This document shows, piece by piece, positions 10,301 through 61,670 of a stretch of 64,000 nucleotides of DNA. The DNA is from Monilinia fructicola (Eukaryota; Ascomycota; Leotiomycetes; Helotiales; Sclerotiniaceae): contig VICG01000003.1 of NCBI GenBank assembly GCA_008692225.1, forward strand, positions 1,109,501 to 1,173,500, read 5' to 3'. The notes beneath the pieces are model-generated. The model did not search any database, was not told where the DNA came from, and worked only from the letters and a program-made list of their open reading frames with translations. The first letter of the stretch is position 1. The number at the start of each line of letters is the position of its first letter. A program made the position numbers and the translations under genes.

Positions 10301-11055
10301 CCATACACACAAGCTTCCTCCCGTGAGACCAGCTGCCGTGCCCGCGGAACCTGAGGAAGCTGTTCACGCAGAAGCTAATGCCACGAGTGGTGGTCACGAT
10401 GCACCAAATTGGAGCCGAATGAAGAGTTCTGTAATATTGTGTGGTGCCACTATACTTTACGCCCTTATCGCAGAGATTTTGGTCAACACAGTCGATGTAG
10501 TCCTTTCAAATGTAGCGATCGACGAAAAGTTCCTCGGTATCACGTTATTCGCACTTGTCCCGAATACCACCGAGTTTCTTGTGAGCTCTCCCCCACAGAC
10601 TCCCGTTTTCAGAAAGCTAATATAATTTCTAGAATGCTATTTCATTTGCAATGAATGGTAACATCGCATTGTCCATGGAAATCGGATCGGCTTATGCACT
10701 TCAAGTATGTTTGCTCCAGATCCCGGCTCTTGTTTTATTCAGTGCCATCAATGGGCAATGGCTAGAAGGCTCTGATCTTGTCGACAAGACATTCAGCCTT
10801 ATATTTCCACAGTGGGACATGGTCACGGTTATCCTCTGTGTGTTCTTGCTTAGTTACATGTACGGCGAAGGAAAGAGCAACTACTTCAAAGGTTCTATCC
10901 TTCTTCTCAGCTACCTCGTTGTCATCGTCGGATTCTACTTCTCGGGAATGACGGATCTCGAAGCTATGGGAGCAAGCCGTTTCGATATCATTGAATCGGG
11001 AGGCAGTTTCAAAACCATCGGGAGAGGCAAGTCAGGACATGCTTTTCAACAGTAA
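7391..11055 (+). CDS. VNX1: Vnx1-type vacuolar cation/H+ exchanger (CaCA superfamily)
   Basis: Secondary transporter of the vacuolar/endomembrane CAX-like branch that in yeast exchanges K+/Na+ for H+. Four exons, 7391-7604, 7684-9605, 9657-10580 and 10633-11055, join in one clean frame of about 1160 residues. Residues 1 to about 245 are disordered and Ser/Pro-rich, with an acidic EAEAEAEAE run. Membrane segments begin at about residue 250. The first exchanger alpha repeat (AAINAFFSTLVEVFLY) is near residue 620. A CxxC...CxxC pair (CLTC, CRRC) follows near 717-735. A cytosolic Ser/Ala-rich loop separates it from the second alpha repeat (FLNAISFAMNGNIALSMEIG), which spans the exon 3/4 junction near residue 1020. 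The ATG was chosen because it follows an AAA context and opens the exon that splices in frame. This is the best preserved large gene in the window. Confidence 0.93.
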
Positions 11056-11469: not shown

Positions 11470-12409
11470 CTTGTACGTTTTTTCCAAAAATCGAAAATTA
11501 ACAAATAAAATTAATTAATAAAAAACCTATCAATATTATAATAACAAATTTAAATATTATATATTTTTTAATAATTTTAAATAATATCATAAAAAGAAAA
11601 ATTGTAAAATTAAATGTATTTAAATATTAATTATTATTATAAAAATATATATTTGATTATTATAAAAAATTAAATAACTTTTAATGAATTATAAAAAATA
11701 GATATTTTTTATTTAAGTAATATTTTTTTACAATATAAAACTTTAGATTATTAAAAAAACTAAATTTTTTTTATAAAGATTTAAAGATTATATTAAATGT
11801 AATCTATTAGAAATTAATAATTAAAAAATATTATTTAAAAATAGTTTTATTATAATAAATCAAGAATAATTTAATAAAAAAATAAAATATTATATAAATA
11901 CTAATTGAAAATTTTATATTTATTAGAAAAATTAAAGATTTAATAATAAAAAAGATAAAGAGTATATTGTAAAAAATATATAAAAAGCTTATTGTTTTAT
12001 ATTATATTAATATATAATATTTTTTTAAAAAAAGAATATTTTTATTATATATATAAATAAATTAAGATTATTATTAAAAAAATAAAAATGTATTATAATT
12101 TTAATATAATATTAAATTTAGAATATTTATTTTCTATATACTAATCGCTATAGAAAATCAAAAATTTAAATTATAAAAATTTTATTCAAAATAATTATAT
12201 AATTTTTTATTTTAAAAAAAATTATATATCGTAAATTTATAAAATAACAAATAAAATAGATTATTTTTATATAATATTATATACAATTATATTCTTTAAT
12301 TTCAATTTAACTTGATTTTTTAGATTATTGAAAATTTTAAATAATTATTTGAATTTAATTTAGAATAAGATTTTTCAATTAGAAACTTTTTTTATATAAT
12401 TCTTTTATA

Positions 12410-12410
<1 letters not shown>

Positions 12411-12480
<70 letters not shown>

Positions 12481-12490
12481 TTATTATTAT
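12411..12490. repeat. (ATT)n microsatellite inside the AT-rich block
   Basis: About 25 uninterrupted ATT units with one C substitution near 12480. Confidence 0.95.
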
Positions 12491-12494
12491 TTTC

Positions 12495-12590
12495 AGATAA
12501 ACTTAGATTTTGAAGATAAATTTAGATTTTTAAGATAAATTTAGATTTTTAAGATAAACTTAGAATTTTAAGATAAACTTAAATTAAGTA
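12495..12590. repeat. Tandem repeat of about 20 bp
   Basis: Five tandem diverged copies of a unit like AAGATAAACTTAGATTTT follow the ATT array. Confidence 0.85.
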
Positions 12591-12697
12591 ATATAATTAG
12601 TCATCAAATAATCTATTATTATATTTATTATTTATTAATATATTAATCATATTTCATTTATAATATATTAGTCATATATTTATCGTTACGGGATTTC

Positions 12698-12747
12698 GGC
12701 CTTTTAAGGCTTTATCCTTAACTTAAGGATAAAGCCTTTAGAAGGCC
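12698..12747. repeat. 50-bp near-perfect palindrome at the edge of the AT-rich block
   Basis: The left arm GGCCTTTTAAGGCTTTATCC is mirrored by GGATAAAGCC...AGAAGGCC on the right, with essentially no spacer (centre TTAACTTAA) and one small mismatch or insertion near the outer end. It could form a cruciform or hairpin and sits exactly where normal composition resumes. Confidence 0.88.
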
Positions 12748-13350
12748 AGACATCATATGCATGGGGTGACATGCATACATACATACTAGCGAAGATTACT
12801 TTACTGACTACTCGAGTACTTACTTACCTACTGCCGTATCTCCTCGCAAGATACTCAAGTACTGAGCAAAGAAAGACTCATGGCCGATTAAAGCCAACTC
12901 CCTTCGCCCGAGTCAATATTCGTGATCTGCGTGCGATCTGCGGCTTGTGTTCGGGGTCCAGGCTGCAGTAGGTGGTTGGTTGGTTGGTGATGAGTTCATA
13001 ATTGGTGCTTTAGACGTCATTTCGTTATCGCTGGTCTGGTGAGGGCTGGGAGGGTCTGGGGGTTTTCTGGTGCGGGTCTGGGTGTTGCCCGGCTTTTTTT
13101 TGGAGGGTTAGGGAGGGAGCGGGGGAGGTAGGTAGGTAGGTACCTAGGTAGGTATTTAGAGGTGGGTTTGTCTTCAATTTGCTTTTGCATCTTGCTTTTG
13201 TTTTGTTTGTTAGGCTTGAGGATATTTTTGAGTGCATTGTTGTGCTTTGGTCGGTGTTGAGATTGGTATTGGTGTTTTGGACAGGATTGATGCGATACGG
13301 TAGAGAGGGCTTGAAGTTTTGTATAGGCTTGGTTGGATAGGTTGGGGACA
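12748..13350. other. Intergenic, upstream of the reductase
   Basis: No gene. It has a GGTA/GGTACC-rich stretch at about 13125-13155 including a TACCTAGGTA word, and GT-rich DNA. The minus frame 13025-13351 is low complexity. Confidence 0.5.
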
Positions 13351-14863
13351 ATGCATGTTTTACTTACTGGTATGTATTGAGTTTTGTTGTTGTTTTTTTG
13401 CTTTGGTTCGTTTTGGTCTCATATTGGGAGATGAGGGTCGTGGGAATTGAGTGATGGGTGATGGGTTTCCATTGTATGTCTGGATTCAACTGGAGGGGTG
13501 GTGGTAATCAGGACGTGTATTTGATCATTACGTCCGGGTGTTGGATATGATGAAAGCTGGTTTTAAGGCATGCATCTGGATTGGCGTGCTGGTGACATTC
13601 ATCTTCGATTATGAGATGATTCAGATACGTATTCGAAAGTTTTCGAACACTTCCAAGATTCCTTTTAGACCTAATCCCAATCTCCTTTCTCTTTTCCTTC
13701 TCTGGCCCAGATCCAATAACTAACCTCCCTCTTTATTCTAGGTGGGTCTGGCTTCATCGCCGCTCACATTCTCGATTTTCTGCTGTCCCGTGGACACACA
13801 GTCGTCACGACCGTCCGCTCCCAACAAAAGATTGACGCTATCAAAGCCGCTCACCCAAATGCTCATCCTTCCCAATTAGAATTTTACATCGTGGAAGATA
13901 TTGCAAAGGATAATGCTTTTGATGAATGCATAAAGGCAGTTGGGCCGGGGTTGGACGCTGTATTGCATACTGCTAGTCCGGTATGTTTCTATCTCCTTCG
14001 TTTATGATGCGGGTGTGAATTGAGGTTTTAGAGCAATAGTTGCATTTAACATGAAATCATGGAGGAAATCTGCTAACACCAACATCCCAGTTCCACTTCA
14101 ACGTGACCGACACTAAAAAAGACCTCCTGGACCCCGCCATCAAGGGCACAACGTCCATCCTGTACGCCATCAAAAAATACGGCCCCTCCGTAAAATGGGT
14201 CGTGGTAACGTCCTCCTTCGCCGCCATCGTCAACCCCTTCAAGGGAAACTGGCCCGAGCACACCTACTCCGAAGCAGACTGGAACCCCATCACCCTCGAA
14301 GACGCCGCCCAGAACCCATCCAACGGCTACCGCGCCTCCAAGACCTTTGCCGAAAAAGCCGCGTGGGACTTCATCGAGCGGGAACGGCCCAATTTCACCA
14401 TGACCACCATCAACCCACCGCTGGTCCTGGGCCCCATCGTGCACTATCTCAACTCGCTGGACGCGCTCAAACCCTCCAACCAGCGCATCCGCAATCTCCT
14501 GCAGGGACGCTGCAAAAGACGAGCTCCCCGACACGGGAACCTTCCTCTGGGTCGACGTGCGCGATCTGGCGCGCGCCCATGTCCAAGCCATCGAGGTGCC
14601 CGACGCGGCGCACACAAGCGATTTTTCGTCACCGCCGGCTATTTCAGCAACCGGGAGATTGCCGACGAGATCATCCGCAAGAATTTCCCCGAGTATGAAA
14701 AAGGAGCTGCCGGGGAAGGATGTGAAGGGGGGTGGCTACCGGGGAGGGCGGTGTTTACAAGTTTGATAATTCGAGGACGGTGGATATCTTGCGCTTGAGC
14801 TTCAGGGGGTTGGAGGAGAGTATTGTGGATACGGTGAAGAGTTTGAAGGAGGTGGGTGCTTAG
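13351..14863 (+). pseudogene. Extended SDR (GRE2/cinnamoyl-CoA-reductase-like) NADPH reductase with four frame breaks
   Basis: NAD(P)H-dependent carbonyl reductase of the extended SDR family (methylglyoxal/aldehyde reductase type). Exon 1 is only 19 nt (13351-13369, MHVLLTG), then a 372-nt intron. Exon 2 is 13742-13980 and exon 3 is 14091-14863. The Rossmann motif TGGSGFIA spans the first splice. The catalytic YxxxK is seen in GYRASKTFAEKAAW, preceded by WVVVTSSFAAIV. The C-terminal part is recognisable in three alternating frames: WVDVRDLARAHV, KRFFVTAGYFSNREIAD, KELPGKDVKGGGY, then KFDNSRTVDILRLSF. Breaks are near 14516 (extra A), 14612 (extra AC), 14700 (extra A) and about 14740 (base lost). 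Exon 3 is clearly GC-richer than its surroundings. The gene is either a decaying copy or error-laden sequence. Confidence 0.8.
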
Positions 14864-35756: not shown

Positions 35757-37404
35757 TTATCGTGACATCCTATGAGATAATTCGCGATCTTTCACAAACA
35801 ATGCTGCAACCAAAGCTAACATTCCTAATCCCAGCATCAAAAAGAAGACAGCCCTCACAGCACCCATATAAGCCTGGAGCGCTAGCTCCTTCAATCCTTC
35901 CTCGAGTCCATTGACCACTCCAAAATCATCAATAATTTTTTTGGATACGCTCTGCTGCATGATCTATATCCCCAAGTTTTCTCCCATAATAATTTTCCCA
36001 GCACATTTTTGGAACGCAAGTCCTGCAATTGAAATCCCCCAGTACCGTTCCTGTGCTGCGGAAGGCAAAGAGTGCGGATGTAATGACCGCTTGATCCTTT
36101 ACTTTTACCGATGATAAAAGTGCAAGTATTGTGTGTGGTAAGTGTAATTCCATATCCGATGTTTATTACGCAGAACCAGACATAAGGTGGCCATTCCGGT
36201 GTCTGTAATGTAAATGTACAATGGAATGCCATGCCTAAGATATAGATAAGTTGCGAGGCTACACCAAGTTTGTAAAATCTCTCCCGGTGCTTTTAACGAT
36301 GATTCCGGCGACCATGGAGGCAATTGCTGTGCCGATGGAACCGGGTATGAGACGCAGACCTATTTGAGTTGCGGTATAGCCCTGGGCTTCGAGGAAGAGG
36401 GGAAGGTAGAATATCATTGCGAAGCGGGAAGCGGAGGAAAAAGCATTGGTTAAACAACCACCGGCGACAGATATATCATAAAGAAGGGGGAGGGGAATTA
36501 TGGGCTCTGTGGCGTATTTGAGTTCCGCAAAAATGAAAATTATAAAGGATACTGATGAGAGAGGGAGACTGATTAGGACGATAGGATCGGTCCAAGATAC
36601 GGTATTACCCCCGGCACTCATACCAAGGAGTAATGTAACGAGCGTTGTGAATAAACTGATTGAGCCCAAATAATCAATTCGTTTGAGTTTTGATTTCCCT
36701 TCTCCATCATCTACAGCGGGTATGCGAATGGTGAACCAAGTCCAAATCGTAGCCAAAATCGTAATAGGAATTTGCAATAGAAATGCAGCGCGCCAATCCA
36801 GACTGTCATTAATCCAACCTCCAAGCACACCTCCAATACCAGAGCCTACTCCTAGTATCATATTTCCAATGCCCTGCCACATACCTCTCTCCCTCAATGG
36901 CACTAGATCAGATAACAAGAAAGTGGCAACGGCCATGACCCCTCCTCCTCCTAGCCCGGCTACGACTCTACCTGCGATTAAAACCCACTCGGATTGCGCA
37001 GTCGCGCACATATAGTTTCCCAGTGAAAAGACGATGTTGGAAAGAACAAGACCGCTTCTCCGACCATATATATCCGTAAGCTTTCCAGATAAAGGCTGGA
37101 TTGCAGCGTTCGCTATGAAATAAGCGGATGCAAGCCACGGAAGATGAGAGAGTGACCCAAACGAGGAAGTTATGGGGGACGAGAGGGTAGCAATCATGGA
37201 GGAATCAATGGATGCCACGAATGCGGATAAGAAGGGCCCGATCATGAGTACCCACACGTAGAGTGTAGAAGGGTCCTCTGAGACGGCTGTATTTGAATCT
37301 GAGGCATCGACATTTGGATAGAGGATTTCAGATTCAGGTTCATATTCAGGTGGGGGATTGAGTAAAGGAGTGGTTTCGGAGGGATTTTCTGTGTTCATTA
37401 TCAA
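35757..37404 (-). CDS. MFS transporter, DHA2/VBA-like, frameshifted C-terminus
   Basis: Drug:H+ antiporter-2 type major facilitator with about 14 expected membrane spans, in the branch containing vacuolar basic amino acid (Vba) and multidrug carriers. The N-terminus carries ETTPLLNPPPEYEPE, an acidic dileucine-like ETTPLL sorting motif. The first 380 residues are uninterrupted and show DSSMIATLSSPI (motif D1 area), GKLTDIYGRRSGL (motif A), AGRVVAGLGGGGV (motif B) and GSGIGGVLGGWIND (antiporter motif C). From about 36275 the reading shifts: RFYKLGVASQLIYILGMAFH, then LALLSSVKVKDQAVITSALF and FFLMLGLGMLALVAALFVKD in successive frames, ending at 35757. Breaks look like an extra GA (about 36277), extra C (about 36145) and G-run changes (about 36028 and 35977). 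It is the leftmost member of the aldoxime/nitrile neighbourhood. The start could be M1 or M3. Confidence 0.85.
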
Positions 37405-38194
37405 CCTAGGATTTAGCGGTCAATCGACCACAATAAAATGAAGAAATAAAGATGCAGAGACAAATCTTTGTCGTATTAAGATAACGGGGAAGTGAAGCGG
37501 GGCCGAACATTGGCTTACACGCGTCTGCGTTATTGGCTCTCCAAGAAGAAATCAAGAGGGCGCGGCATAGCGTAATCAATGGTATAAATATTGACTTCAT
37601 GAAGAACTATCTGCATACATTTCAGCAAACACCAGTAAAGCGCCAGGACTACTTGAACACTGCAGCGAGCTTAGCATATTGAAAATCTCGGTAGAATGAG
37701 GGGTTTGGCTTGGAATAATTGACAATTACAGCGAGCCACAATGTATGTAGAGATTAGATGGGAGTTGGGAGGCGACTGGCCAATGATGATTTAAGATCTA
37801 GACCAGATAGCTGAATATAACATCGGAGTCGGGCTCATTGATGCCAAGATGAAGAAACTGTGCATATTGTCACGTAATGATTTTCATGCTCAAGAGCATT
37901 TTCGACATATCATCCAATTATCCACTCCCGGTTGCGAACATTTCATTTCGGATAGCTTGAAATGACGCTGTACACATACTTTGTGATATACAACTGATCC
38001 GTGGGATTACCTGGCAAAACATCTAACTGGTTTCAAGGTAGCTTGTTGCCGGCATCAAGATTGCCAGAGGTAGTGATATACAGATGTAAGCTGAACGAGG
38101 ATGGATGTTGTGGAGAAAAAGATTGGAAGTCACGCTTCTAACCTCACTCTTGGCGGATCAATGACCTTATGCTATCGACTCGAGTACGGAGTAT
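37405..38194. other. Upstream region of the MFS gene
   Basis: Promoter-side DNA, no gene seen. The minus frame 37406-37600 is unsupported. Confidence 0.45.
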
Positions 38195-38403
38195 ATAAAA
38201 ATTGTAAAAATTATAAAAATTATAAAAAATTATAAAAATTATAAAAATTATAAAAATTATAAAAATTATAAAAATTATAAAAATTATAAAAATTATAAAA
38301 ATTATAAAAATTATAAAAATTATAAAAAATTATAAAAATTATAAAAATTATAAAAATTATAAAAATTACAAAAATTATAAAAATTATAAAAATTATAAAA
38401 TTT
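38195..38403. repeat. (TTATAAAAA)n 9-bp satellite
   Basis: About 23 tandem copies of a 9-bp unit with rare one-base variants (for example an extra A near 38225 and a C near 38369). It starts right after CGAGTACGGAGTATA. Confidence 0.95.
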
Positions 38404-39370
38404 ATATTAAGGTTTTGTTAAATACTGTAATTTCAAGTTTTACAGTACGTGTATATTCGTCTATACTTCTTTTCAAAACCCGCCCGAGGATAAGGTTAAG
38501 CTAATTAGTCGTTGAAGTGATTGGCTACCAGGCTACCAGCGCAACTAATGCTTGATTCACGAAAAGTCGCAGGTTTTCAGCATAGATGATAGAACTTACT
38601 CTATGGACATCATGAGCAGTTTCAAAAGGGTTACAATATGGACTCTGGAGTAGAGACGTTTACTTTGTAGGTGACTAGCTTTTAATAGTTTTGAATAGAC
38701 CCAAGGAAATTCATACTGTACAGTACTGTGATAGCGATCAATCCACCTTCGGAGAAAGTCCCGAAATGCAACCATGAAATCCTTGCCTCACTCTACGGAG
38801 TATAACCTTTTTCCTTGATGGGATATAAAGTGGGGTGTTGTTTTTATCAAGTTAGCCTAGTTACATCGCTCCTGCCGATACGTCGGCTACGTCGCCGTCG
38901 ACTCCTTCCGTGACGACCGCCACAGAAATAATGTCTTTACAGACTACCTAGTGTGCCTATTATATAAACTATGAGAATGAAAATGAAAATGAAAATGAAA
39001 ACTGGCTAAATGTTTCTGGTGTAGGTTACAGGATATCCTGCTATGTTTGGATACTTGATATGAAATACGAATTTTTGAATGCATTGGCAATACCTACGTA
39101 AGATTACTACTCGGTAAGCTTAAGGACTACATACTAGAATCATTCAATATCAACCAGATCTTCTTGATTGAAATAATGATTATCAAGCAGGGAGACACGT
39201 TCTGCGTTATCATACTACCTATTCAAGGACCAACAAAAACTCCCAATTGTAATCAAGTAGTGAGACATGATATAATGGTCTCGAGCGATTCGTAAAATTA
39301 TTCAATTATCAACTAACATCCATGAAAATGGGATTATATTATACAGCATTGTTATTTCTCCGATATTTAT
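38404..39370. other. Intergenic downstream of the nitrilase
   Basis: No gene seen. It has a short GAAAAT tandem at about 38975-38999, a TACGGAGTA-like word at about 38797 and a GTACAGTACTGT palindrome-like word at about 38717. Confidence 0.5.
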
Positions 39371-40469
39371 TTATTGAATCTTCTCCTCGATTCGAAGTGT
39401 GCGTCCACGGGTATCACACCCAAGCCACAAAAGATCCGGTCTACTGTAATGGCCACAAATATCTAAGAAACTGCGCGCAAAGATAGCTTGATCTAGATCG
39501 ATTTCTCCAAATATGATTCCCTCGGTTGCAGAATCAAGAGGCTTCGACATGACTCGGCCGTCAGGTCCGATGATAGCTGAGCTGCCACCACCAGGGGCTG
39601 ACATTAACAATCTCCTCCTTCGCTAGAGTTTGCCTTAACGCCCTTTTCTGTAATTACAGTGGTGGCGTGAAGAACGAATGTCTGAGACTCTATAGCATAT
39701 ACTTGGGAAAGGCTCTGACAACCTAGAGAATATGTTAGCGATACTTTATTTCAATCCATCTAAACAACCTTCTAAAAGCTTTTTCAAGAACTTACCTTGT
39801 TTCGACATGGACCATAGCTCGGGCCCGCCAGTATGGTCGACGATTGGCGGCCATGCTGAACAATGAATCTGCTCTCGTTGATGTAAGGTGTGATATTTCA
39901 GCAATGGCTGGCAATGTTCCCAGCATGCCAAAGCTCCGACTTTCCCGATACGAGTCGAGACCACATTCATGAGACTATCACCGGAAGCATCCCCAAAAAT
40001 TGTACGTTCCATATGTGTGGCCTTAAGCTTTCTCCTCTTCATGACTATCGTACCATCTACATCAATAATAGCTTGTGCAATATATAATGAGTTATGATCA
40101 TTCTCAGAAAAGCCAAGAGAGACGATAATTCCATGCTTGGCCGCACAACTTTGTATAGTTCTCATCTCATCAGAATCAACGGCTAGGGAATTGCGAATAT
40201 AAATGGTAGAGAGGACTGGATCTACCGGGCGAGTCCTGCTGTTAAATTAGCTTCGCATAAAACAAGACTTTGATCTTTGGTATTTCTCACCAAATCCAAG
40301 CAGGATAACCTGGAATGAATGCTTCTGCAAATGTGACTAATTGTGCACCATTCTCTGCAGCTTCTGCGATAATGCGGCAGGTCTTTGCCACTGACTTTTT
40401 CAGGTCAAACCATTCTGGTTCATGCTGAGAAACAGCCACACGATACGTTGAGGAACTTAAGCCGGTCAT
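39371..40469 (-). CDS. Nitrilase (nitrile aminohydrolase), one frameshift
   Basis: Carbon-nitrogen hydrolase that turns nitriles into carboxylic acids plus ammonia. Exons are 40469-40291, 40235-39796 and 39722-39371; total about 320 residues, typical of the family. The catalytic triad is visible: Glu in [14 protein letters not shown], Lys in [20 protein letters not shown] and Cys in [17 protein letters not shown]. The C-terminal segment is [19 protein letters not shown], then [11 protein letters not shown]. The start is the Met before [20 protein letters not shown], because the family begins with this beta strand; the upstream in-frame extension is dismissed. One frame change, two bases gained or one lost, lies at about 39608-39615 (GGAGGAGATTG). 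It is co-directional with the regulator upstream, and its promoter is rich in GATA sites. Aromatic or arylaliphatic substrates are suggested by the neighbouring aldoxime dehydratase only. Confidence 0.87.
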
Positions 40470-40658
40470 GTTTTCGCGGATAGAACAATGAATGACAATT
40501 GTATTGTTGAGAAGGTTGTGCCGTACGACAGATGTATGTATGAATTGAACAGTGTATAATATGGGTGTGTGAATGGAACGGTGCCTCATGAACGAATATA
40601 CCTTCGGTCTTATATATTCAAAGCTCGCACACTAGATTGTCGCGGAACTTCGCAATCT

Positions 40659-40937
40659 TGATAAGATACGAGATACTAGATAAGCCAGATAAACTCCCTG
40701 CTAGATACTATCAAGTAATTTTGTGTTCCAATACTGCGGCTTAGTATGTTTCAATATCCCACTTAGTAACTTTTCCCCGCGTTCGTAAACATCTTGTCGG
40801 GATCTTGCTAAGATAGCGGCTTGACCCCTTATCAATTAGTCTAGCGCTAAAACGGGGGATGGGGACAACACGGCGGTGGTAATTCCGCTTAGATAAGAAT
40901 ACCTGGTCGTGTGACTTAGCATACCCCTAATTTATCT
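40659..40937. promoter_or_regulatory. Cluster of seven HGATAR (AreA/NIT2-type GATA factor) sites
   Basis: Matches to HGATAR occur at 40659-40664, 40678-40683, 40687-40692, 40811-40816, 40829-40834 (reverse), 40891-40896 and 40932-40937 (reverse), all within 280 bp and 190-470 bp upstream of the nitrilase start. Closely spaced sites of this kind are the usual signature of nitrogen-metabolite control by AreA-class GATA factors. Confidence 0.6.
40873..40888. promoter_or_regulatory. GCGG-N8-CCGC inverted repeat
   Basis: An inverted pair of CGG half-sites with an 8-bp gap, the form bound by Zn2Cys6 dimers. It lies between the regulator's 3' end and the nitrilase start, inside the GATA cluster. 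Candidate site only. Confidence 0.4.
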
Positions 40938-41012
40938 TGCGGGATAACGCATCGACCGACTGGCCACTAAGCATCAGGAATCCCCTATCATTGGCATTTC
41001 CTGCCATTGCTA

Positions 41013-43373
41013 TCATAAACCCACAAGGCTTTCGTCGAAAAGCCACTCAAGACTTGACTGATATGCAATATGTTCTGGGAGATTGACATGCTCCAGCGCG
41101 TTCTCAAACAGGCTTGGGTCCCACAGATTCCCGAAGTCGTTATGAAAATCAGTGTACATGTATCCGCCCCCATTGCATCGATATCACAATCATATGGGAT
41201 TGGAGGGATGCTAGGAGGGATGCTAGTCCATTCTTGGGATGGTATTGTGGTTTCGTTGTGATCTGGAGGGATCTCCCTTGCTGGTAAGCGTTGACTCAAG
41301 TGTAGTGGTAAAGCCCATACTACTTTCCATCTATCCGCAAGCTCTTGGATTTGCCGTATTGCTCTGCTTGCCTGAGGCATCCACGTGTTCTGTATCTCAA
41401 TGAGAGCATCTGAACAAACTCGTAAGCTATTCGCAGATTGTCTTCCTAGGAAATTACGACCAGATGTTGCATTCAGTAAATGAATGACAGCCGCACTAAG
41501 GATATAATCGATGATTTGAGGGTTGACGCCAGCAAAACCACGAAACTTTCGATATGCTCGAACGATCCTGGCTATCGAGGCGGCTGCATTCGTTGCCGAT
41601 CTCAACGCAAAGCTCAAAGTCTCCGAACCTTTAGGCTCATTCAAAAATGGCCGGTGAATGAGTAACAACGCAGTATGATAAGCTAATTGGAAAAGAAGAA
41701 AAGTTTGAGGCATGTAGTTCTTGCTCAGAGCTAACTTATTATCGGTATCCGCATAGAAATCTGTGAGTGCTTTGTGTGCGCGGTTAAGGAGATTTTGTCG
41801 TTGGCTGGCCTTTAAATAGGTCCACTCAAAGGCATACCTGGTTTTTGTAAGTCTACTGTACTTTGTTTGATGAGGAACCCTACCTTTGATCCATAAAAGA
41901 GTCCCAAAGATGCCATAACTGACAGAACTTGTCATGAGCTAGTTCATCAAGCAATGGATCATGATCCAAAGCACCGACGAATGAAGACATGCGAATTCGT
42001 TGCCAGTGGATGGTACAATTCATCCCAAGACTCGAGGTTACCATACTAGACTTACATGTCATTATTATCGTACTTGAAATTCATGGAAATTAGATACTTG
42101 CCGATCAACTGAGAAATATGCCCAAAACGATCTTATTCGGCGCTTACGAATGTAGTCATCATTCGTGGAATCAATATTTGAGGCCGAATCAGGTGATTTT
42201 CCGGGTCCCAGATTGCTCACATGGAGCCCAAGGTGTAGTATCAGACCAGTTGCCATGGCTGCAGTGATTTGTTAATTGGATGTTTGAGCAAAGTGATACG
42301 ACTTTATACCGACCTATATAAGTATACGCCATGCTATTGTTCTCCAGCATCAGCTCACGCCATGATAATAGCGCAAGCCCTTGAACGGCTAAGTCGCTCG
42401 GATGTTCCCGCACGCATCGGAACAACATATTTTCGGCAGATATTGCGTGATAACTACTCAACTCCCTTGAATCCGAGTTTGGGGAAAGGAACGCACCCAC
42501 AGAAAGTAATGCATGATTTCTAAAGCCCAAATCAAGCTCTGTTGAGAACGTGGTCTCCGAAAGCACGCATGGCAACTCCGCTTGTTCTATGAATTGATGA
42601 TAGACATTGAATGCATTCGTAAAACATTCCACGAGGTGCTGACGGGTCTCTAAGCAGAATCTATCCTCGGCAGAGCTTGCACTATGGTGGTTAGGATCAA
42701 ATTTTATGTTGTCGATCGATAAATTTGTTCTGCCTCAAGGAGTACTTGTCCTTGCCTGACGGAATGGTAAATGATGGTTCACCTTTCTCCTCAATATCCA
42801 TGGTCAACATCAACGAAGCAAGCTCCTCCATAGCAGCCTGTGAGCGCGGACCATTGCTCTCCCCTTCCTTTTCCGGAGTACCGGCTTCGGTCTCATCAGC
42901 AGGGGGCGAAGTGTAATCAATACTGGCTGGCCCAGGTGTAGGTAGAATCTCGTGACCCATAGACTCCTCATGATTTTGATGTTGAGGCTCCGATTTTCGA
43001 TAGCTTTCTAACTGATCCTCCAGGATTTTGACCTTATCTTCAAGGTTACGTATATAGCCATCATCGTAATGCTTGCGTCTGCAAACCTTAGCTGGGCTCG
43101 GGAGTTTCGACTGATCAAGCAACTGAGAACATACTTTCGCGAAAGCTCGGGAGGATACTGGCACAGCTTTCCTCCTTTCTTACAGAGAGCACAGATTGGC
43201 TTCTGGCCTTGGCACTAATTGTCGTAAGCATGGAAGGTCATACCGGTATCATTACCATTAATTCGAAACAGCTCGTGCGCGTCAAGTACCTTTCGTTTAT
43301 TCTTCCGACACTCCTCACAAGCAATTTTAGTTCGTGAAGGCGGCGGTTGCTGTTGAGAAGCCATGGAATCCAT
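41013..43373 (-). CDS. Zn2Cys6 fungal transcription factor, pathway-type regulator (two frame breaks)
   Basis: Binuclear zinc-cluster activator or repressor. Exons are 43373-43290, 43214-43135, 43078-42314, 42258-42102, 42045-41884 and 41837-41013. The cluster spans exons 1-2 with exact spacing CX2CX6CX6CX2CX6C (CEEC-RKNKRK-C, then CQGQKPICALC). A basic linker and a coiled coil (YIRNLEDKVKILEDQLESYR) follow. The fungal middle homology region holds MATGLILHLGLHVSNLGPG and RRIRSFWAYFSVDR. The intron after VDR begins GC (GCAAGT), a GC-AG intron. Frame breaks are a TCGA duplication at about 42715-42722, separating KFID from NIKFDP, and one A lost near 41172. After the latter the true end, NLWDPSLFENALEHVNLPEH to VGL, is in a second frame ending at 41013. 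It lies between nitrilase and aldoxime dehydratase and is divergent from the latter. Confidence 0.88.
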
Positions 43374-44266
43374 GATTGCGGATACACAAAGATCAACCCC
43401 GCACACGAGGTATGTGGGATTCCTACAAGCTATCAGTTGGGTCAACTATGTTATTAGTATGTAATTGGCATGACATGATTGATTGACTATCATTTGACTC
43501 CTCTCTCGAACGAAACTCACATTTGGATAGTACAATGGAATTGTTTCCGCTAACAAAGTCAATGTTGATGGGATAACCTTCTATAATTAACTTGGCATTA
43601 TAATATATCAATGAAGGCTGAGCAAGCCATGAATGAATTCGTGGCGGAAATCCTCTCGTTAGAAATTGGGCGTTCGTCTATGGCTTTTGCCATTAGCAAT
43701 ATGGTCCGAGCTTCTGTCGATAGGATGCATCCGGTGATAAGGTTAAGGGGTATACGGAGTACGCGGTTGGGACTGATAAGTAAAAAGGCTATTTATCAAC
43801 GGCATCTACCGTACAATATACACATCTCATTAACACCTCCTTTACCAAACACACCTCGTTCTTTTACTAGGTCATAAGTACACCTCCTTTACTAAATACG
43901 CCTCCTCTGCTCGTCAAGCAAGATATGGATGGTCTACGGATATGTCCCAAGCCAAGCGGCTCAACAGATGTCCAAAATTATCCAAATGATCTCAATAGTC
44001 TATCCACTAGAATGCTGAGATGGACACGTTGGGTGGTTCGTGCAGATACCATAAATGATTCAACCTGATTGGCTATGCAACCTTTAGGGTCAAAATAACT
44101 TTTTCAGATACTGTACTTATAATCTAAAAAGTTACTTTACCTGAATTTTTGGGTTCCTTAAATTCCTCAAAAAGGCGTATAACTAAAGAGTTACTAAAAG
44201 TTTATATATATGAATTTTTATAAAATATTTTATATTTCAAGATTTATAATGATTTGTGTCAAGATT

Positions 44267-44293
44267 GGCACGTGACGCTGTACATCACGTGCC
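44267..44293. promoter_or_regulatory. Perfect inverted repeat GGCACGTGA-N9-TCACGTGCC
   Basis: Two 9-bp perfect inverted arms separated by 9 bp (CGCTGTACA), each containing the bHLH E-box CACGTG. It lies about 890 bp upstream of the regulator start and about 740 bp upstream of the aldoxime dehydratase start. Likely a protein-binding site; the factor is unknown. Confidence 0.6.
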
Positions 44294-44312
44294 GTGCTAG
44301 TCCCATAAAGTT

Positions 44313-44320
44313 CGGATCCG
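44313..44320. promoter_or_regulatory. CGG-AT-CCG palindrome (possible Zn2Cys6 site)
   Basis: CGGATCCG, an inverted CGG pair with a 2-bp gap, 20 bp from the E-box inverted repeat in the same divergent promoter. It is also a BamHI site by chance, so low certainty. Confidence 0.3.
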
Positions 44321-45028
44321 CTCCTTTCCCTCCTCATACAGATCTATTTACGTTACCGTCGTCTCTTGGCCACCAGTTTCCGATCACTGCGTGACAATTT
44401 GGTTGGCCAATAAGATCCCTGCTAAGCGAACGTATCCATTTTCGGCATTTTAGGGGATAGCAAGTGATACTGAAGCTAAGTAGCATCAGAATATCCACGC
44501 TCAGTCTTATAAAGTTTTTACAGTATCACCCGCTAAAAAACCCTATTCAGTCCTCTCACTTGAAGGAAGGGCAAAGGATAGATTGGCCCATATAAATCTA
44601 GCAGGTAAAATTTATCATTGGATTTCGATTTTGCTACAAATGAAGAATAGGAACTTACTAAATACTTCTTGGGAACGATTAAAAGATCAAAATCAGGTCT
44701 ATGCAAGGCATTTTAACCATTCAAATGAAGTATATCAGGGAGGATCCATCAATTACTGTTTATTTAGGAGGGCTGCATATGGCTATCTTGCGCGGGTGTT
44801 ACATCCGCAGTGTGAAGAAGAAAATAAAGGTTCGTCATGCGGAAATTGGAGAGTTCGAAAAAGGAGGCAAAAAGGTATAAAAAGTGTTCAAATCACTTCA
44901 GATTACTTGTACATTCATACTTCTTCACGGTGCTCAAAAGTTAGTTCTTTATACGCATATTTAGACACAAGTGTCAAAAACCAATTGTTCAAAACCATCA
45001 ATATCATACAGAGTAGTTATCGATCAAC

Positions 45029-46114
45029 ATGGTTTACCTACTTGATACGGACGGAAAGGACTATGTCTTCACCTATGGCATCTTCGGTGTGCAGCATGAA
45101 GAACTTACCTCAGAAAAGGCTACCTCCATATCTACCCTCTACAAACTCCTTTCCTCATCAGCCAACCGCGTCGATCACCTCCAAGACGAAAGTCACGGAC
45201 TTCCACGACAAGGCCCAAAATCCACAACCTTTGTTGCATACTGGTTATCGTCCGCTGACTACGAGTCATGGAAAGAGTCATCTCCCGTAAAAGAATTTTG
45301 GGCGTCGCTGCCGGCCGACGCAGGTGTCTGGCGAGAAGTAATGTCAGTTCCCAAATCTCGCTTCATGTTCGCCTCTACCCTACCTGTCGCATCAGCAATG
45401 GGAACACTCCTTCCCCTAAAACAAAGCAGCGATGAAGGATACTGGGGTGTATATCGTCATCGACTTTCCGAAACTCCGGATTCCCATACCGATCCTTCGG
45501 ATACATTTACCTCAGCCTATACTACCCCAACCAAAGCAAAACCAGACGAGACGAGAAAAATTATCGATATACCTAGTACTCGAAGTACAAAAGTAAGACT
45601 AGGAAGGGTCACCATCTCCAATCCCCCCGATAACCTAGTCTTCGTCAGAGAAGGTCAACGCCATCCGCACATCCCTCCCGCCGAGACAGCAGCATGGATC
45701 GAGCACATAAGCCCACACGCACAGTCTTGGATATCACATATCGATACGGAACGCAACAAAAATGGCGTTGTCGCATTCACCACCCACATTGGACACGAGA
45801 ATCCTAAACCAGAGGTGGTGAATGAGGAATTTGACCCAAAAGCGGACTTAGAGCTCAATACAGAAGCTGTCGCAGAAGCTAACCAACTTGCTTATTTTAT
45901 AGACTTGGCACATTTTGAGCAGGCTGGACGCTCATATAAGGCCCATGTGCAGATGAGAAATAAGCTTTTTAGTCTTTATGGGCCTGGGGGTCAGTTAGAA
46001 AAGGGGAAGACGGTCTTGTTTGTAGAGTTATGTGTCTTGAAGTCAAAGGACTTGGATGCGGAGTATATTGGCTGTGCAGAAGGGACAGGCTTGATGTATT
46101 TGGCTGATTTGTAG
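45029..46114 (+). CDS. Aldoxime dehydratase (phenylacetaldoxime dehydratase family)
   Basis: Heme-dependent lyase that removes water from aldoximes to give nitriles (R-CH=NOH to R-CN). The 361-residue intronless frame matches the usual length of 350-370. Recognisable segments are YVFTYGIFGVQ at the N-terminus and TTFVAYWLSSADYESWKESS with WREVMSVPKSRFMFASTL. Next is EGYWGVYRHRLSE, then NPPDNLVFVREGQRH. The C-terminal heme region YFIDLAHFEQAGRSYKAHVQ contains two histidines; one is expected to be the proximal heme ligand and one catalytic, but I cannot assign which without alignment. LFVELCVLKSKDLDAEYIGC closes the fold. No frame break occurs. It is divergent from the Zn2Cys6 regulator and 4.6 kb from the nitrilase, which would consume its product. 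The N-terminus is a little short, so an upstream exon is possible. Confidence 0.85.
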   Translation: MVYLLDTDGKDYVFTYGIFGVQHEELTSEKATSISTLYKLLSSSANRVDHLQDESHGLPRQGPKSTTFVAYWLSSADYESWKESSPVKEFWASLPADAGVWREVMSVPKSRFMFASTLPVASAMGTLLPLKQSSDEGYWGVYRHRLSETPDSHTDPSDTFTSAYTTPTKAKPDETRKIIDIPSTRSTKVRLGRVTISNPPDNLVFVREGQRHPHIPPAETAAWIEHISPHAQSWISHIDTERNKNGVVAFTTHIGHENPKPEVVNEEFDPKADLELNTEAVAEANQLAYFIDLAHFEQAGRSYKAHVQMRNKLFSLYGPGGQLEKGKTVLFVELCVLKSKDLDAEYIGCAEGTGLMYLADL

Positions 46115-49255: not shown

Positions 49256-52200
49256 GGTCATCCCAGTCCAATATTAGCACCTAAGCCTTTCGCCTACAGC
49301 ATTGGCGACTGTGTCCACTTGTAAAATAGTTTAACCTTAAACTTCGATTTGAGCTTGGATAAGAATCAACCATAACTTGATATTCTTTGTAAAGCTCTTC
49401 GAGAAATGATATTTAGCAAAAGAATATCTGTGTCCGATCCGTCAACCACATAGAATGATGGTGTCGCTAAGAAGGCAAAACTTATATTTTGAAGAAAAGA
49501 GAAGGGGATTTAGGCTTAGTCACTAAATGCTATGATCATTTGCATCACCAGTGCCCAGGCATTCTTCCGCATTTTTATGATGGAGTATTTTCATTGCAAA
49601 GTTTGCATTGTTCCTTCAACCAGAGCATAGAGCGCAAGATCATCAAGCGTGCGACCAAAGCTCCTTCTGCCCCACAAAATCGGGTCCCGATATCAGATCA
49701 GTATACAGTAGCATGCTTTGACAGGTATGTAGTTTTCCATGTCTCCGTATGTGAGACAATATTTTTTTGCGACCTGGTATGGTAGGATATCGCATCAGCA
49801 CTAGTGTCTAAAATTCACCAAAGTCTCAAGCTCGTCCAGACGATTCTAAGTCCCCACCATGCTTTGGGTTTGAAAAATTTTCTGTCCACAATTACCCCTG
49901 CCATTTCTAATTCTCCGAAAACTGTACATATAACTTCCTTCTAAATGAAAACCGAGCTTAAAAATCACGCGGATGTCCTACCACTCAAAATTACTGGATT
50001 CGCGAATAAAGGGGTCAATTGAATTCACAGAAATTCTGTTCATCTATGAACAACGAATAGAAGTATAAGGGTCTTAAAGACAAATGAAAGATGCTCGCAG
50101 TCAAAATAAACCTAGACAGCCCAATATTGTTGATATTCAAAACTCTCCGCCTGATTGTTCTACAACGCAGTCCACATTGGAATGATTGCCAGGTGCCGGC
50201 ACTATCATGTGATCAAGATGGCACCGTACAAGCTAAATGCAGTCAGTATAAGCAAGCACTAGCATATGGCGAGCCTTTTATATAGGATTTATATAGGATC
50301 AGCTGCGTAAATATCCAACAGAAATCAAGAATGATATAACTGTGGAATCAAGCACTTATACTTTTAACGGCCAGGTCGATACCAACACCTGGCGCAAAAC
50401 ACAGTAGCTGCGGTTCTGATCCATGGCCCTGGTCCAAGCCTTCTGCCATTGAAATGGGGAACGGATCTCCTCCATCGATACGTATACCATGAATGACTGA
50501 CAGCCTAAGTACAAGATGGTAGTGAGAGGTCTAGCCAAGTACCGGAAGTATGGTATCCCAACCCAAACTCTGATTCTGAGATAATAATAAGCTTTAGAAT
50601 TTTTGGGTTACTCCCGTAAATAGCCCGAGTCCTTATTTTTACTTGGGCCGATCTTTAGATTTATATTTAGATATGCAATACAACTTTGAAAAGCTATGAA
50701 GTAAGGCTGAGTTCTTCCGTCTTGAACTTGAAATAGGGATTGACTAAGTATCATTCTGCCTCTGACACGATTATAGCAAATCACTATAGTTTCCTTCTTT
50801 CTTCTTTCTTCTTTTGATTGGCTTGCTTGCTGTCTGGCAACAATTCTCCACAGATAAAAAAAAAGTTCATCAGCGGACCCGACAATTATACTCTACTGTA
50901 TTTAAGCTTACACTGGTAAGTATTGCCACACCGATCGCGTCCCTCGTGAGCCATGTGAGCACCTATGTGAGCGTTCTCAGACATTCGAATCACATTTGGG
51001 GTGATGGATGTGCCCACAACTAAGTGGAAACAAGTGGAGAAAGACTCTCGTTCAACCATGGTTGCCATCCATCTCCACAAGAAGGACTGGTCGTGCGGGT
51101 TGTGCATGACCTGAATCCATCTTAAGCGCTTCAGATGATGGATTTAAATTGATAATAGCTTCTAAATTATTCTGCAGAGAAGTCTTCCAGCCCAACCTAA
51201 TCATTCTAGAACAAATACCTGCAGACAGTGCAGTGATGCATGGAAAACGTTATTTTTCGGCCAGTGTGGTGATTTATCAACCACGTCGTTGTACGAGGTC
51301 CGAGGTAAATGAAGCTTTGATCAAGATCATATGGGAGGATGTACATGTTGATGGATTCTCATTGTAACAACTCTTCATGGCGATGAAAGTTCTGGAGGCT
51401 TGAGACGGTTTCGTGATGTGATGGAAAAAGACAATGAAGGTGAAGATGAAGGTGGAGTTCAAAAACCCTCAATACTCATCGGAAAAACTTCTGCCGAGAA
51501 TTAGCGTGAAATTCTCGTTTGGCTATTGCACGTAGTTTCCCCTTCACAGCTTTACATTCTCAGACAATAATATATTGTCACTACCAATAATTCAGTACTT
51601 TCACAACGAGTTGTTGAATTCTCATAGGAAAATGGATATAATTTGATACAGCTGATACTATCGAGATCGAAATGATCTACTGAATGCGCATTTATTTTCC
51701 AAAATCGGCAATCTTTTCCGCCCCGCAAAGCCTACCAAGCTCACGGTGAGCTGTTAAAGTTCCCCGTTGACCGCAAGATGGTGGAGAATCATTTCCTTTT
51801 TTCTTCAAATTTTCTTACTTTTGCACAATTTCATCTACCATATTCGTTATTTTGGGTATCGTAAGTAACATGTGCCCAACCAGAATCCGTGCTCCAGAGC
51901 GTTCCAAGCAGAGCTTGGGAATTGCGGATTTTGTTCCAGATCTTGAGCTGGCAAGTCTTTTTGAATGTGTTGCTCTCAAGAGCTAGTTTTTTCGAGCCAT
52001 TAGTGTGTACAATATGGAGCTTTGTCGTGATCACGCCCAAAGAGCATATTTGCTGTCGGCTCAGGAAGGGGGCTAGATTCTCAAGTGGTTGATTTTCGAT
52101 TAAGCTGAACCATAATGTCGAGCATTGGGAGCCAAAAGAGAGTTTTACTCAATCCAAGCCACCCTGGCGCATCTATCATATATCAAGTAGTTATTCCCTT

Positions 52201-52266
52201 CACTTTCTACCTCAAGCCATCACATATCGAAAGCATACAGGAAGTTTCCCTCCCCACTCACGTATC
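49256..52266. other. Decayed or non-coding region
   Basis: Short coding-like islands occur, all on the minus strand: at about 49600-49700 (GAEGALVARLMILRSMLWLK) and at about 50360-50520 (HGIRIDGGDPFPISMAEGLD then LLCFAPGVGIDLAVK). They cannot be joined or assigned to families. This looks like a graveyard of old genes between copy B and the MCT carrier. Confidence 0.4.
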
Positions 52267-53774
52267 ATGGACCACTCGGAAGCAAAAAATGACTTTCCTT
52301 CAACCATTGATCTCGAACAGGGCATTGGTGGTGTCTCCCTAACTGAAAGTTTAGGAAAAGAGAAAGAGAAAGATGTCGTTATCACTTGTACTCCAATTCC
52401 AAATCCACTCATAGATGAATCGTCAGATTCAGATTCGGAAGATGAGTACAAGTACCCCGAAGGTGGATTACAAGCTTGGCTTGTGGTCTTTGGGGCATGG
52501 TGTGGAATGTTTTGTAGCTTTGGAATTGCGAATTCCACGGGTTCATTTCAAGCATACCTAGCTACGAACCAGTTGGCATCATATTCTGATTCGCAAATTG
52601 GATGGATCTTCTCCCTTTATTCATTCATTTTGTTCATTGGTGGCATATACATTGGTCCTGCATTTGATGTCTATGGACCAAGATTTTTGGTCCTACCAGG
52701 AAGCATTTTACTCGTCCTTTCAGTGTTTCTGTTTGGAGAGTGTACTGGTAAGTTTTCAAACCCCAAAAGTCATCTCAGGCAAAGCTAACCCATCCAAAGA
52801 GTACTGGCAATGGATTGTTGTATTCAGCATACTTGGTGGTTTTGCCAGTTCTCTTACTTTCACTCCGTCGGTTGCAGTGATCGGTCACTGGTTCCATAAG
52901 AAGCGTGGGAATGCAACAGGAATTGCCGCCACAGGTGGCGCTTTCGGTGGTATTGTCTTTCCACTTCTCCTGGAAAACCTCATCCCAAAGATTGGTGTAA
53001 GTACTCTTTTTCCCAAACTCAATATATTATACTGCAAATTTCTAAGCGCTTGACCTGTAGTTCTCCTGGACAATGCGAGTGATGGGATTCATTTTCGTTT
53101 TCGTCACCGTCATAGCCAATGTCCTCATCAAACCTCGTCTTCCTCGTTCTCAAACTGCGCAAAGTCCTCATCCAGATTTAAAGATATTCAAAAAGCCGGC
53201 CTTTGCCTTCACCGTACTCGGTGTCTATCTTCTTGAATGGGCATTCTTCTTACCAGTTACCTATATTACATCTTACGCTCTTTATGAGGGATTTCCAACA
53301 GCAATCTCTTACCAATCCCTGCCCATCATGTGCGCTGCATCTGTTTTTGGTCGTTTTCTACCAGGCCTCCTTGCCGATAAAATTGGTCGATTCAATACCA
53401 TTATCTTAGCACTCTTTCTCACCGTCTTTGCTTGCTTCGTCGTCTGGCTTCCTTTTGGAAACACTTACCCCGGTCTAATTTGCTCCGCTCTACTGCTTGG
53501 TTTTGCAAGCGGTTGCAACGTTGGCCTAACACCTGTTTGCGTGGGCCAACTGTGCGAAACCAAAGACTATGGTCGATATTATGCGACTTGTTATTCAGTA
53601 GTCAGTATCGGGTGTTTAACTGGTGTCCCTCTCGCCGGCGCCTTGATTGAGGCTTGCGGTGGTGCATATTGGGGGCTAATTATGTTTACGGGTTTATGTT
53701 ATGCTGCCAGTGGAGTCTCTATGGCTTTTGCTAGAGGAAATGGTGGTGGATGGAAATGGAATGTTGTTTTTTAA
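52267..53774 (+). CDS. MFS monocarboxylate-type transporter (MCT/SLC16-like, MCH family)
   Basis: Membrane carrier of the fungal MCH/MCT group, whose members move monocarboxylates, riboflavin or related solutes. Exons 52267-52747, 52800-52996 and 53061-53774 join in one clean frame of 463 residues. The acidic cytosolic N-terminus (DESSDSDSEDEYKYPEGGLQ) leads into the family-defining first span (GGLQAWLVVFGAWCGMFCSF), with GSFQAYLATNQLASYS after it. Twelve spans are expected. Visible landmarks are IGPAFDVYGPR between spans 2 and 3, HWFHKKRGNATGIAATGGAF and GRFLPGLLADKIGRFNTI in the second half. It ends in a short tail, GGGWKWNVVF. No lesions. It is not obviously part of the aldoxime cluster (6 kb away, decayed DNA between). 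Confidence 0.9.
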
Positions 53775-59837: not shown

Positions 59838-60602
59838 TTTTTTAATTTTTAATTTTTAATTTTTAATTTTTAATTTTTAATTTTTAATTTTTAATTTTTA
59901 ATTTTTAATTTTTAATTTTAATTTTTAATTTTTAATTTTTAATTTTTAATTTTTAATTTTTAATTTTTAATTTTTAATTTTTAATTTTTAATTTTTAATT
60001 TTTAATTTTTAATTTTAATTTTTTAATTTTTAATTTTTAAATTTTTAATTTTTAATTTTTAATTTTTAATTTTTAATTTTTAATTTTTAATTTTTAATTT
60101 TTAATTTTTAATTTTTAATTTTTAATTTTTAATTTTTAATTTTTAATTTTTAATTTTAATTTTTTTTAATTTTTAATTTTTAATTTTTAATTTTTAATTT
60201 TTAATTTTTAATTTTTAATTTTTAATTTTTAATTTTTAATTTTTTAATTTTTAATTTTAATTTTTAATTTTTAATTTTTAATTTTTAATTTTAATTTTTA
60301 ATTTAATTTTAATTTTTAATTTTTAATTTTTAATTTTTAATTTTTAATTTTTAATTTTTAATTTTTAATTTTTATTTTTTAATTTTAATTTTTAATTTTT
60401 AATTTTTAATTTTTAATTTTTAATTTTTAATTTTTAATTTTTAATTTTTTAATTTTTTAATTTTTAATTTTTAATTTTTAATTTTTAATTTTTAATTTTT
60501 AATTTTTTAATTTTTTAATTTTAATTTTTAATTTTTAATTTTTTTTAATTTTTAATTTTTAATTTTTAATTTTTAATTTTTTTTTAATTTTTAATTTTTA
60601 AT
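59838..60602. repeat. (TTTTTAA)n 7-bp satellite, about 765 bp
   Basis: Roughly 105-110 tandem copies of the 7-bp unit TTTTTAA with scattered 6-bp (TTTTAA) and longer T variants. It is the largest array in the window and has sharp ends. Confidence 0.97.
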
Positions 60603-61670
60603 TAATGCTTAATAACGTAACGCTTTTCTTCTTTCCCCTTCAAATAGATTTTTGGAATTCCGAGGTCTCTTTCTTCCCTTCCCTCTCCTTTCTCTTTCTT
60701 TTTCCCCTTCCCCACAAGAAATCCTATCAAGTTCCGATATGATGAATTGATGAATTGATGAATTGATGAATACAACCTTGAAACACCCATCGGTAAGGTT
60801 ACCTGGGTACTTTCTTGATCCAACTCTTGGGCTGTGTTCTCCTCCTCCTTCATCCCTTCTTCCTCTTACATCTCTTCCCACAGCTCCTTCCTTTGAAACC
60901 TTCAACGCTTACTACCTTCTACACTATCCATCCATCCATCCATCCATCCATCCATCCATCCATCCATCCACTACAACGACCCGTTGCTGGCACAACTTCC
61001 GCTCCGCTCAAGATTATAAAACTTAGGAGTACTCGACAACTTCAATACGTCGATCAAACACACAACACAAATTCCCTAGGTACTACCTGGCATATGGTGG
61101 CGGTATACCATCTACCGTCTTCCATCTTCAACATCAGATCATTCGGTCGTTACAAGGTCCATCTCCAAAGGCCATCTTGAACTGGACTCTTCTCAAAAGT
61201 ATCCTGCTCTAGGCATTTTGTGCTTCTTTTGCATTTGCATTAATTGAAGCTCGCACATTACATTACATTCATTTGTCCATTTGTTCATTTATTTCGTGCA
61301 TCTTCTAAAATCAGGTGGCGCCAGGGTTGTTCACTTGGTACCTCTTCCCCTGCAGCAAGTTGCATCAAGCCGAACGCTTTGATTTCGAAAGTCTCCAGTG
61401 TGAAAAACTCCTCCTATTCGTCCATTTCAAAGTAACACGACCACCACTGGACCTTCCACGTTAATCCGGAATTTTTGACAAACAGCATTTCAATCATTCT
61501 ATAGATCTTTACTCCTCAGTCTTCCACAGATATCCAGCTACATTCAAAAGGTCAAATATCGACCATCTACCAAAGGAACAAACAGTTCATAGAAACACAA
61601 TCTCTAGTCTTTCAACTGCTTTGGTCTGGCTTCACAAAATTGAAGCTACAGCGACATATATGAGGTCATC
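60603..61670. other. Promoter-side region of the acyltransferase gene
   Basis: It has a GATGAATT tandem at about 60739-60770, an ATCC array at 60929-60969, pyrimidine-rich DNA and a CCTAGGTACTACC word at about 61075. No gene supported. Confidence 0.5.

Follow-up and report, generated by a model that had tools for sequence, protein, structure and literature searches.

A 10.4-kb locus in the genome of Monilinia fructicola, the agent of stone-fruit brown rot, carries genes for an aldoxime dehydratase (OXD), a nitrilase (NIT) and a Zn2Cys6 regulator (TF), with a gene for a major facilitator superfamily (MFS) carrier beside them. The locus lies in a 64-kb stretch of DNA, referred to here as the window, from an assembly of 44,028,109 bases in 20 contigs. 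The linkage of OXD, TF and NIT is real and recurs in several classes of Ascomycota, and we consider it rather probable that these genes make up a fungal aldoxime-nitrile pathway unit consisting of OXD, NIT and a Zn2Cys6 switch. A first-pass annotation of the window had placed the four genes within 10.4 kb, and profile matches and relatives locate all of them there (Table 1).

Synteny was judged from the locus tags and equal-sized contigs of protein matches. The OXD search returned 110 proteins, of which 39 rows carry a named species or strain; for NIT the best 120 of 1257 relatives were taken, and the TF search scored 7998 candidates. At least 20 of the 39 named OXD rows have a NIT or TF relative on an equal-sized contig or under a neighbouring tag. 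Fourteen species or strains have neighbouring tags: M. fructicola (5283/5280), Botrytis porri (8336/8334), Sclerotinia borealis (3388/3387), Dothideomycetes sp. NU459 (7083/7085), Neodothiora populina (6089/6088/6087), Cladophialophora chaetospira (117/116), Fusarium solani (17463/17462), F. falciforme (1422/1423), Cudoniella acicularis (10736/10737/10738), Botrytis calthae (60/70), Exophiala aquamarina (6886/6885), E. mesophila (4144/4145), Aureobasidium pullulans (OXD/TF tags 175/176) and Aureobasidium sp. EXF-8845 (8958/8957). OXD and NIT share equal-sized contigs in at least 13 species or strains, with tags one to three apart in eight, and the tags of OXD and TF are adjacent in at least eight species or strains. 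The order OXD-TF-NIT is seen in M. fructicola, Neodothiora populina (006089/006088/006087) and Cudoniella (g10736/g10737/g10738). All three genes of Lachnellula suecica are found on one 11.7-kb contig. In each of Halenospora, Tricladium and Bisporella, OXD lies on the same long contig as NIT, and in Glarea on the same long contig as TF, with no tags to give a distance.

The linked OXDs belong to the Leotiomycetes, Dothideomycetes, Eurotiomycetes and Fusarium; lineages were checked for Neodothiora (Dothideomycetes), Exophiala (Eurotiomycetes) and Glarea (Leotiomycetes), and the class placement of the remaining linked species is presumed. The first-pass annotation had named a conserved neighbourhood as one check on its proposal, and OXD, NIT and a Zn2Cys6 gene do occur together across several of these classes. 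OXD and NIT distances correlate over 13 species (rho 0.668, a value reached by 7 of 2000 permutations). The distance comparisons omit Amylocarpus, which has no OXD among the matches, and Monilinia vaccinii-corymbosi, whose tags lie 404 apart; NIT of M. fructicola enters them as the public model P0111, part of which is altered.

OXD had been called an intact aldoxime dehydratase, and its uninterrupted frame bears this out, with a PF13816 score of 251.8 bits in a profile search (cut-off 25). It is the sole PF13816 match found in the 44-Mb genome. The AlphaFold2 model of the protein (predicted local distance difference test score 84.5, predicted template modelling score 0.87) has the Oxd fold across its full length, and its best matches in the PDB are OxdB (template modelling score 0.76/0.81), OxdRE (0.70-0.73) and OxdA (0.71/0.73); in the fold alignment it shares only 16-17% identity with these bacterial structures. 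The public model EYC84_005283 equals the window OXD for the first 188 of its 211 residues and then has an altered end, while the window frame is open for 361 residues. The Botrytis cinerea OXD entry, P0011, has 312 residues and stops before the C-terminal strand that carries the distal position, perhaps through decay or a poor gene model; the B. cinerea regulator BCIN_02g03020 is present among the TF relatives even though this OXD is short.

The active site was mapped by aligning a profile built from 30 fungal OXDs to OxdB, OxdRE and OxdA, with positions counted allowing for the tag offset, and residues were counted in 111 sequences, the 110 matches and the window OXD. The equivalents of Arg178, Ser219, His320 and His299 in the window OXD are R145, E208, V332 and H306. 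In OxdRE the proximal heme ligand is His299. The first-pass annotation had named absence of the heme-ligand histidine as evidence against its proposal; the residue is present as H306, and a histidine occupies this position in all 108 of the 111 sequences without a gap there. Arginine is found at the Arg178 position in 111 of 111 sequences. At the Ser219 position the window OXD has E208 in place of the bacterial serine, and 104 of 109 non-gap sequences have glutamate. The distal acid-base histidine is likewise absent, with V332 at the His320 position, which is valine in 98 and alanine in 5 of the 103 non-gap sequences. The combination R-E-V occurs in 95 of the 102 sequences in which all three positions are present, the window OXD included.

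The roles of Ser219, His320 and Arg178 in bacterial aldoxime dehydratase are described in PMC5391958, which reports the His320 to Ala variant of OxdA as without aldoxime dehydratase activity. Because this substitution is reported to abolish dehydratase activity in OxdA, dehydration by an enzyme of the R-E-V type must use another residue, for which Glu208 would be the obvious candidate. A 2024 review states that REV and REE active sites are common among fungal Oxd homologues and that information on them is lacking (PMC11568032); we read its three letters as the Arg178-Ser219-His320 positions.

NIT has three exons separated by introns of 55 and 73 nucleotides, and both of its PF00795 pieces exceed the cut-off. 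The Glu-Lys-Cys triad noted in the first-pass annotation can be placed at E49, K129 and C164 by reading of the motif. The relatives P0112-P0118 are 85-89% identical to NIT, whose public model is EYC84_005280. The closest solved structures to P0112 are nitrilases, at 258 bits versus 209 bits for cyanide hydratase, a ranking that is weakly consistent with a predicted role in nitrile hydrolysis. The genome holds 15 PF00795 pieces; the nearest nitrilase paralogue (C2:1499709-1500755) is 60-72% identical to P0112 by piece, and its matched pieces are free of stops.

The regulator was also correctly recognized as a Zn2Cys6 protein: six cysteines (CX2CX6C...CX2CX6C, read by eye) are spread across two exons, and the Monilinia laxa relative P0231 matches the window gene piece by piece at 65-91% identity. 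PF00172 and PF04082 are over the cut-off in all five TF relatives scanned (P0231-P0233, P0236 and P0246), and the window piece scores 22.0 bits against PF04082, slightly below the cut-off of 23. In M. fructigena, the public model P0232 (DID88_002794) joins a Zn2Cys6 regulator to nitrilase pieces; the fusion is probably an annotation artefact, and it would fit the same TF/NIT order in that species.

The carrier had been described as DHA2/VBA-like. Its similarity to the EmrB/DHA2 group stands, with an MFS_1 score of 147.6 bits and EmrB as the best relatives in the PDB; the match to the DHA2 profile TIGR00711, made with a 379-codon fragment, reaches 156.8 bits and so stays below the curated cut-off of 230.2. 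We regard the carrier as a neighbour of the OXD-TF-NIT unit that may or may not take part in it.

Table 1. Features of the M. fructicola locus, in window positions.
Feature	Position	Strand	Description
Aldoxime dehydratase (OXD)	45029..46114	+	uninterrupted 361-aa frame; R145-E208-V332 active site, proximal His H306
Nitrilase (NIT)	39371..40469	-	exon 1 40469-40291, exon 2 40235-39796, exon 3 from 39722; PF00795
Zn2Cys6 regulator (TF)	41013..43364	-	flanked by NIT and OXD; contains several introns; frame changes at two places; tblastn of relatives
DHA2/EmrB-type MFS carrier	36262..37398	-	open N-terminal 379 codons; MFS_1
Probable out-of-frame carrier tail	35760..36280 (approximate limits)	-	frame change versus paralogue L003; three-frame translation
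Divergent TF(-)/OXD(+) intergenic region	43365..45028	.	expected shared promoter; from gene coordinates

Consideration of these genes together suggests how the unit might work. A ferrous heme held by H306 would bind the nitrogen of the aldoxime, and OXD would remove water to give the nitrile, which NIT would hydrolyse to a carboxylic acid and ammonia. Glu208 with Arg145 probably does the acid-base work of the bacterial His320 in this OXD clade, and the Zn2Cys6 protein probably turns on OXD and NIT when substrate is present. As the catalytic distal histidine of the bacterial enzymes is missing, the reaction of OXD is one that we infer; the nitrilase neighbour suggests that enzymes of the R-E-V type still make nitriles. 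The first-pass description of the locus as a dedicated catabolic or detoxification unit thus fares unevenly: the linkage of OXD, NIT and Zn2Cys6 genes in several classes fits it, and its enzymology stays at the level of prediction with an OXD that has no catalytic distal histidine.

Arylacetaldoximes, such as phenylacetaldoxime or indole-3-acetaldoxime, would be the likeliest class of substrate, and the unit may serve to obtain nitrogen or to detoxify plant defence compounds. Phenylacetaldoxime lies on the route to prunasin and amygdalin. Stone fruits, the hosts of Monilinia, are described as producers of both compounds in PMC5987419. According to PMC8955678, aldoximes serve plants both in defence and as precursors, and indole-3-acetaldoxime is the best substrate of a Sclerotinia enzyme. 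A more ambitious reading, which we find possible and hold tentatively, is that OXDs of the R-E-V type embody a second catalytic solution, in which Glu208 and Arg145 would provide acid-base chemistry and Val332 would widen the pocket for an indole or phenyl group, and that, given their conserved place near a nitrilase and a Zn2Cys6 gene in several classes, the unit acts against plant aldoximes as a pathway specific for its substrate and under its own regulator. For plant pathology, the locus is a candidate fungal route for handling aldoxime and nitrile defence compounds or for releasing arylacetic acids.

Several observations weigh against the pathway reading. In this assembly the NIT frame is broken about 80 codons before its end, the TF frame is broken twice and that of the carrier is probably also broken; and the window OXD has valine where OxdA is reported to need His320 for dehydratase activity. 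Pairs of CGG/CCG with a spacing of 0-15 are not enriched in the TF/OXD promoter (4 versus 5.75 expected from 200 plain shuffles); the NIT promoter (5 versus 3.39) and the carrier promoter (4 versus 4.2) show nothing clear. For OXD and TF, the distances in 10 species show no correlation (rho 0.128, a value reached by 479 of 2000 permutations). Nineteen of the 39 named OXD rows have no partner among the NIT and TF matches listed, which, given the limited size of those lists, does not count as absence; in M. vaccinii-corymbosi the wide spacing of OXD and TF on their one scaffold speaks against tight linkage there. M. laxa and M. fructigena are not named among the 110 OXD matches, of which 39 are named, although their regulators are present.

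The broken frames raise the question of assembly error or decay. When relatives are aligned to the window, NIT has one frame change without room for an intron, near 39604-39613, after which its conserved C-terminal 77 codons run on in another frame to 39371, and TF has two, near 42718-42731 and near 41165-41183. The carrier has a frame change at about 36280 against the paralogue L003, although the paralogue L005 could be aligned past this point, to 36037, without a change of frame; further changes in the carrier tail are suggested by three-frame reading alone. HSP70 and Cpn60/TCP1 genes from this assembly served as a control, and 12 of the 13 loci that gave two or more matches were tested; the HSP70 locus C4:138819 and single-match loci are omitted. 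Seven frame changes without intron room were found in five of these 12 chaperone loci (C4:2238789-2240603, C1:2565689-2567117, C13:1145989-1147524, C3:614888-615777 and C12:1397088-1398132) over about 25 kb of matched length, summed from 38 of 41 matches, giving 0.28 per kb; a nested match in the chaperonin C16 that hints at two further breaks was left uncounted. At this rate 0.84 breaks would be expected in NIT and TF, against the three observed (P about 0.054). Chaperone genes are mostly essential, and the chaperonin subunits are essential in yeast. Because the breaks also hit these genes, the assembly very likely contains indel errors, and a pseudogene reading gains little support from the breaks in NIT and TF.

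It is conceivable, though we think it unlikely, that the M. fructicola unit is decaying, with OXD still open, NIT, TF and the carrier reduced to pseudogenes, and no working pathway in this species. The excess of breaks in NIT and TF over the control rate and the probable break in the carrier would fit such decay, as would the shortened B. cinerea entry P0011 and the two Monilinia species unnamed among the OXD matches; yet decay is hard to credit in the chaperone loci, where the same kind of break occurs, and the broken pieces are about as similar to their relatives as OXD is to its own. For this assembly PMC6795239 describes 24x PacBio and Illumina reads joined via DBG2OLC and Sparc, and this hybrid origin also speaks for error over decay. 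Frame breaks in this assembly should not be taken as gene loss without the reads.

A further alternative, to which we give still less credence, is that the R-E-V type OXD is a heme protein with other nitrogen-compound chemistry, for example redox, and that its product is passed to the nitrilase or that the two share an inducer. The joint exchange of His320 for valine and Ser219 for glutamate in 95 of the 102 complete sequences would suit such a change of function, and His320 variants of OxdA are reported with changed catalase, peroxidase and peroxygenase activity in PMC5391958. The invariant arginine and heme-ligand histidine speak for retained dehydratase chemistry instead, as does the nitrilase nearby in many lineages, and a glutamate could act as the acid-base residue. 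That the neighbourhood is an accident of unrelated genes seems to us very improbable: nitrilase-family genes are indeed numerous in this genome and the carrier has no comparative support, but all three genes, or two of them, stand under neighbouring tags in 14 species or strains, and OXD has a single match in the genome. For OXD, TF and NIT an accidental neighbourhood is largely refuted, though it may hold for the carrier, and the pathway unit is the reading we prefer.

The pathway unit joins fungal neighbourhoods that are already known, and its active site is unexplored. Neighbourhoods of oxd and nitrilase genes in Fusarium graminearum and Ochroconis mirabilis, likewise with the gene for a fungal heme aldoxime dehydratase beside that for a nitrilase, are already published (PMC4738786). 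A predicted regulatory protein is noted there as lacking from O. mirabilis, from which its presence in the earlier cases would follow. Compared with what is set out there, M. fructicola has a Zn2Cys6 gene between the two enzyme genes, a linkage that extends over several classes, and an OXD of the R-E-V type. Bacterial operons of Bacillus OxB-1, Pseudomonas and Rhodococcus also have OXD and a nitrile-hydrolysing enzyme at one locus, as summarized in PMC8955678; the M. fructicola OXD differs from the bacterial enzymes at Ser219 and His320, and its regulator is of the eukaryotic Zn2Cys6 type.

The window OXD, with its R-E-V residues, agrees with the label in the sequence network of PMC11568032, and the section of this review on REV and REE enzymes does not put them beside nitrilases. 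Another member of the Sclerotiniaceae, S. sclerotiorum, has the indolyl-3-acetaldoxime dehydratase OxdSs, described in PMC11568032 and PMC8955678 as an enzyme that dehydrates aldoxime when purified. S. sclerotiorum is not named among the 110 OXD matches (39 named), so OxdSs, of 347 residues, possibly belongs to a different clade. Among the papers found in an open-access library that lacks most subscription journals, we met no account of wide conservation or of a link between REV enzymes and nitrilases, and no paper for the Botrytis locus tag; among the open-access papers that combine aldoxime, prunasin and phenylacetonitrile, none mentions Monilinia. With R-E-V type OXDs found to sit near a nitrilase and a regulator in a unit conserved among fungi, an unassigned active site becomes cheap to test.

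Other features of the window were recorded alongside the locus. A 9-bp TATAAAAAT tandem array of 23.4 copies lies at 38194-38406, inside the 2-kb gap between NIT and the carrier. A 7-bp TTTTTAA array of 109 copies (59839-60603) borders a stretch of 30% GC, and an AT-rich block of 33% GC at 12000-14000 contains several short AT tandem arrays. A YccF plus Na/Ca exchanger-like gene is found at 7683-10622, and a further MFS gene is present at 52093-53774.

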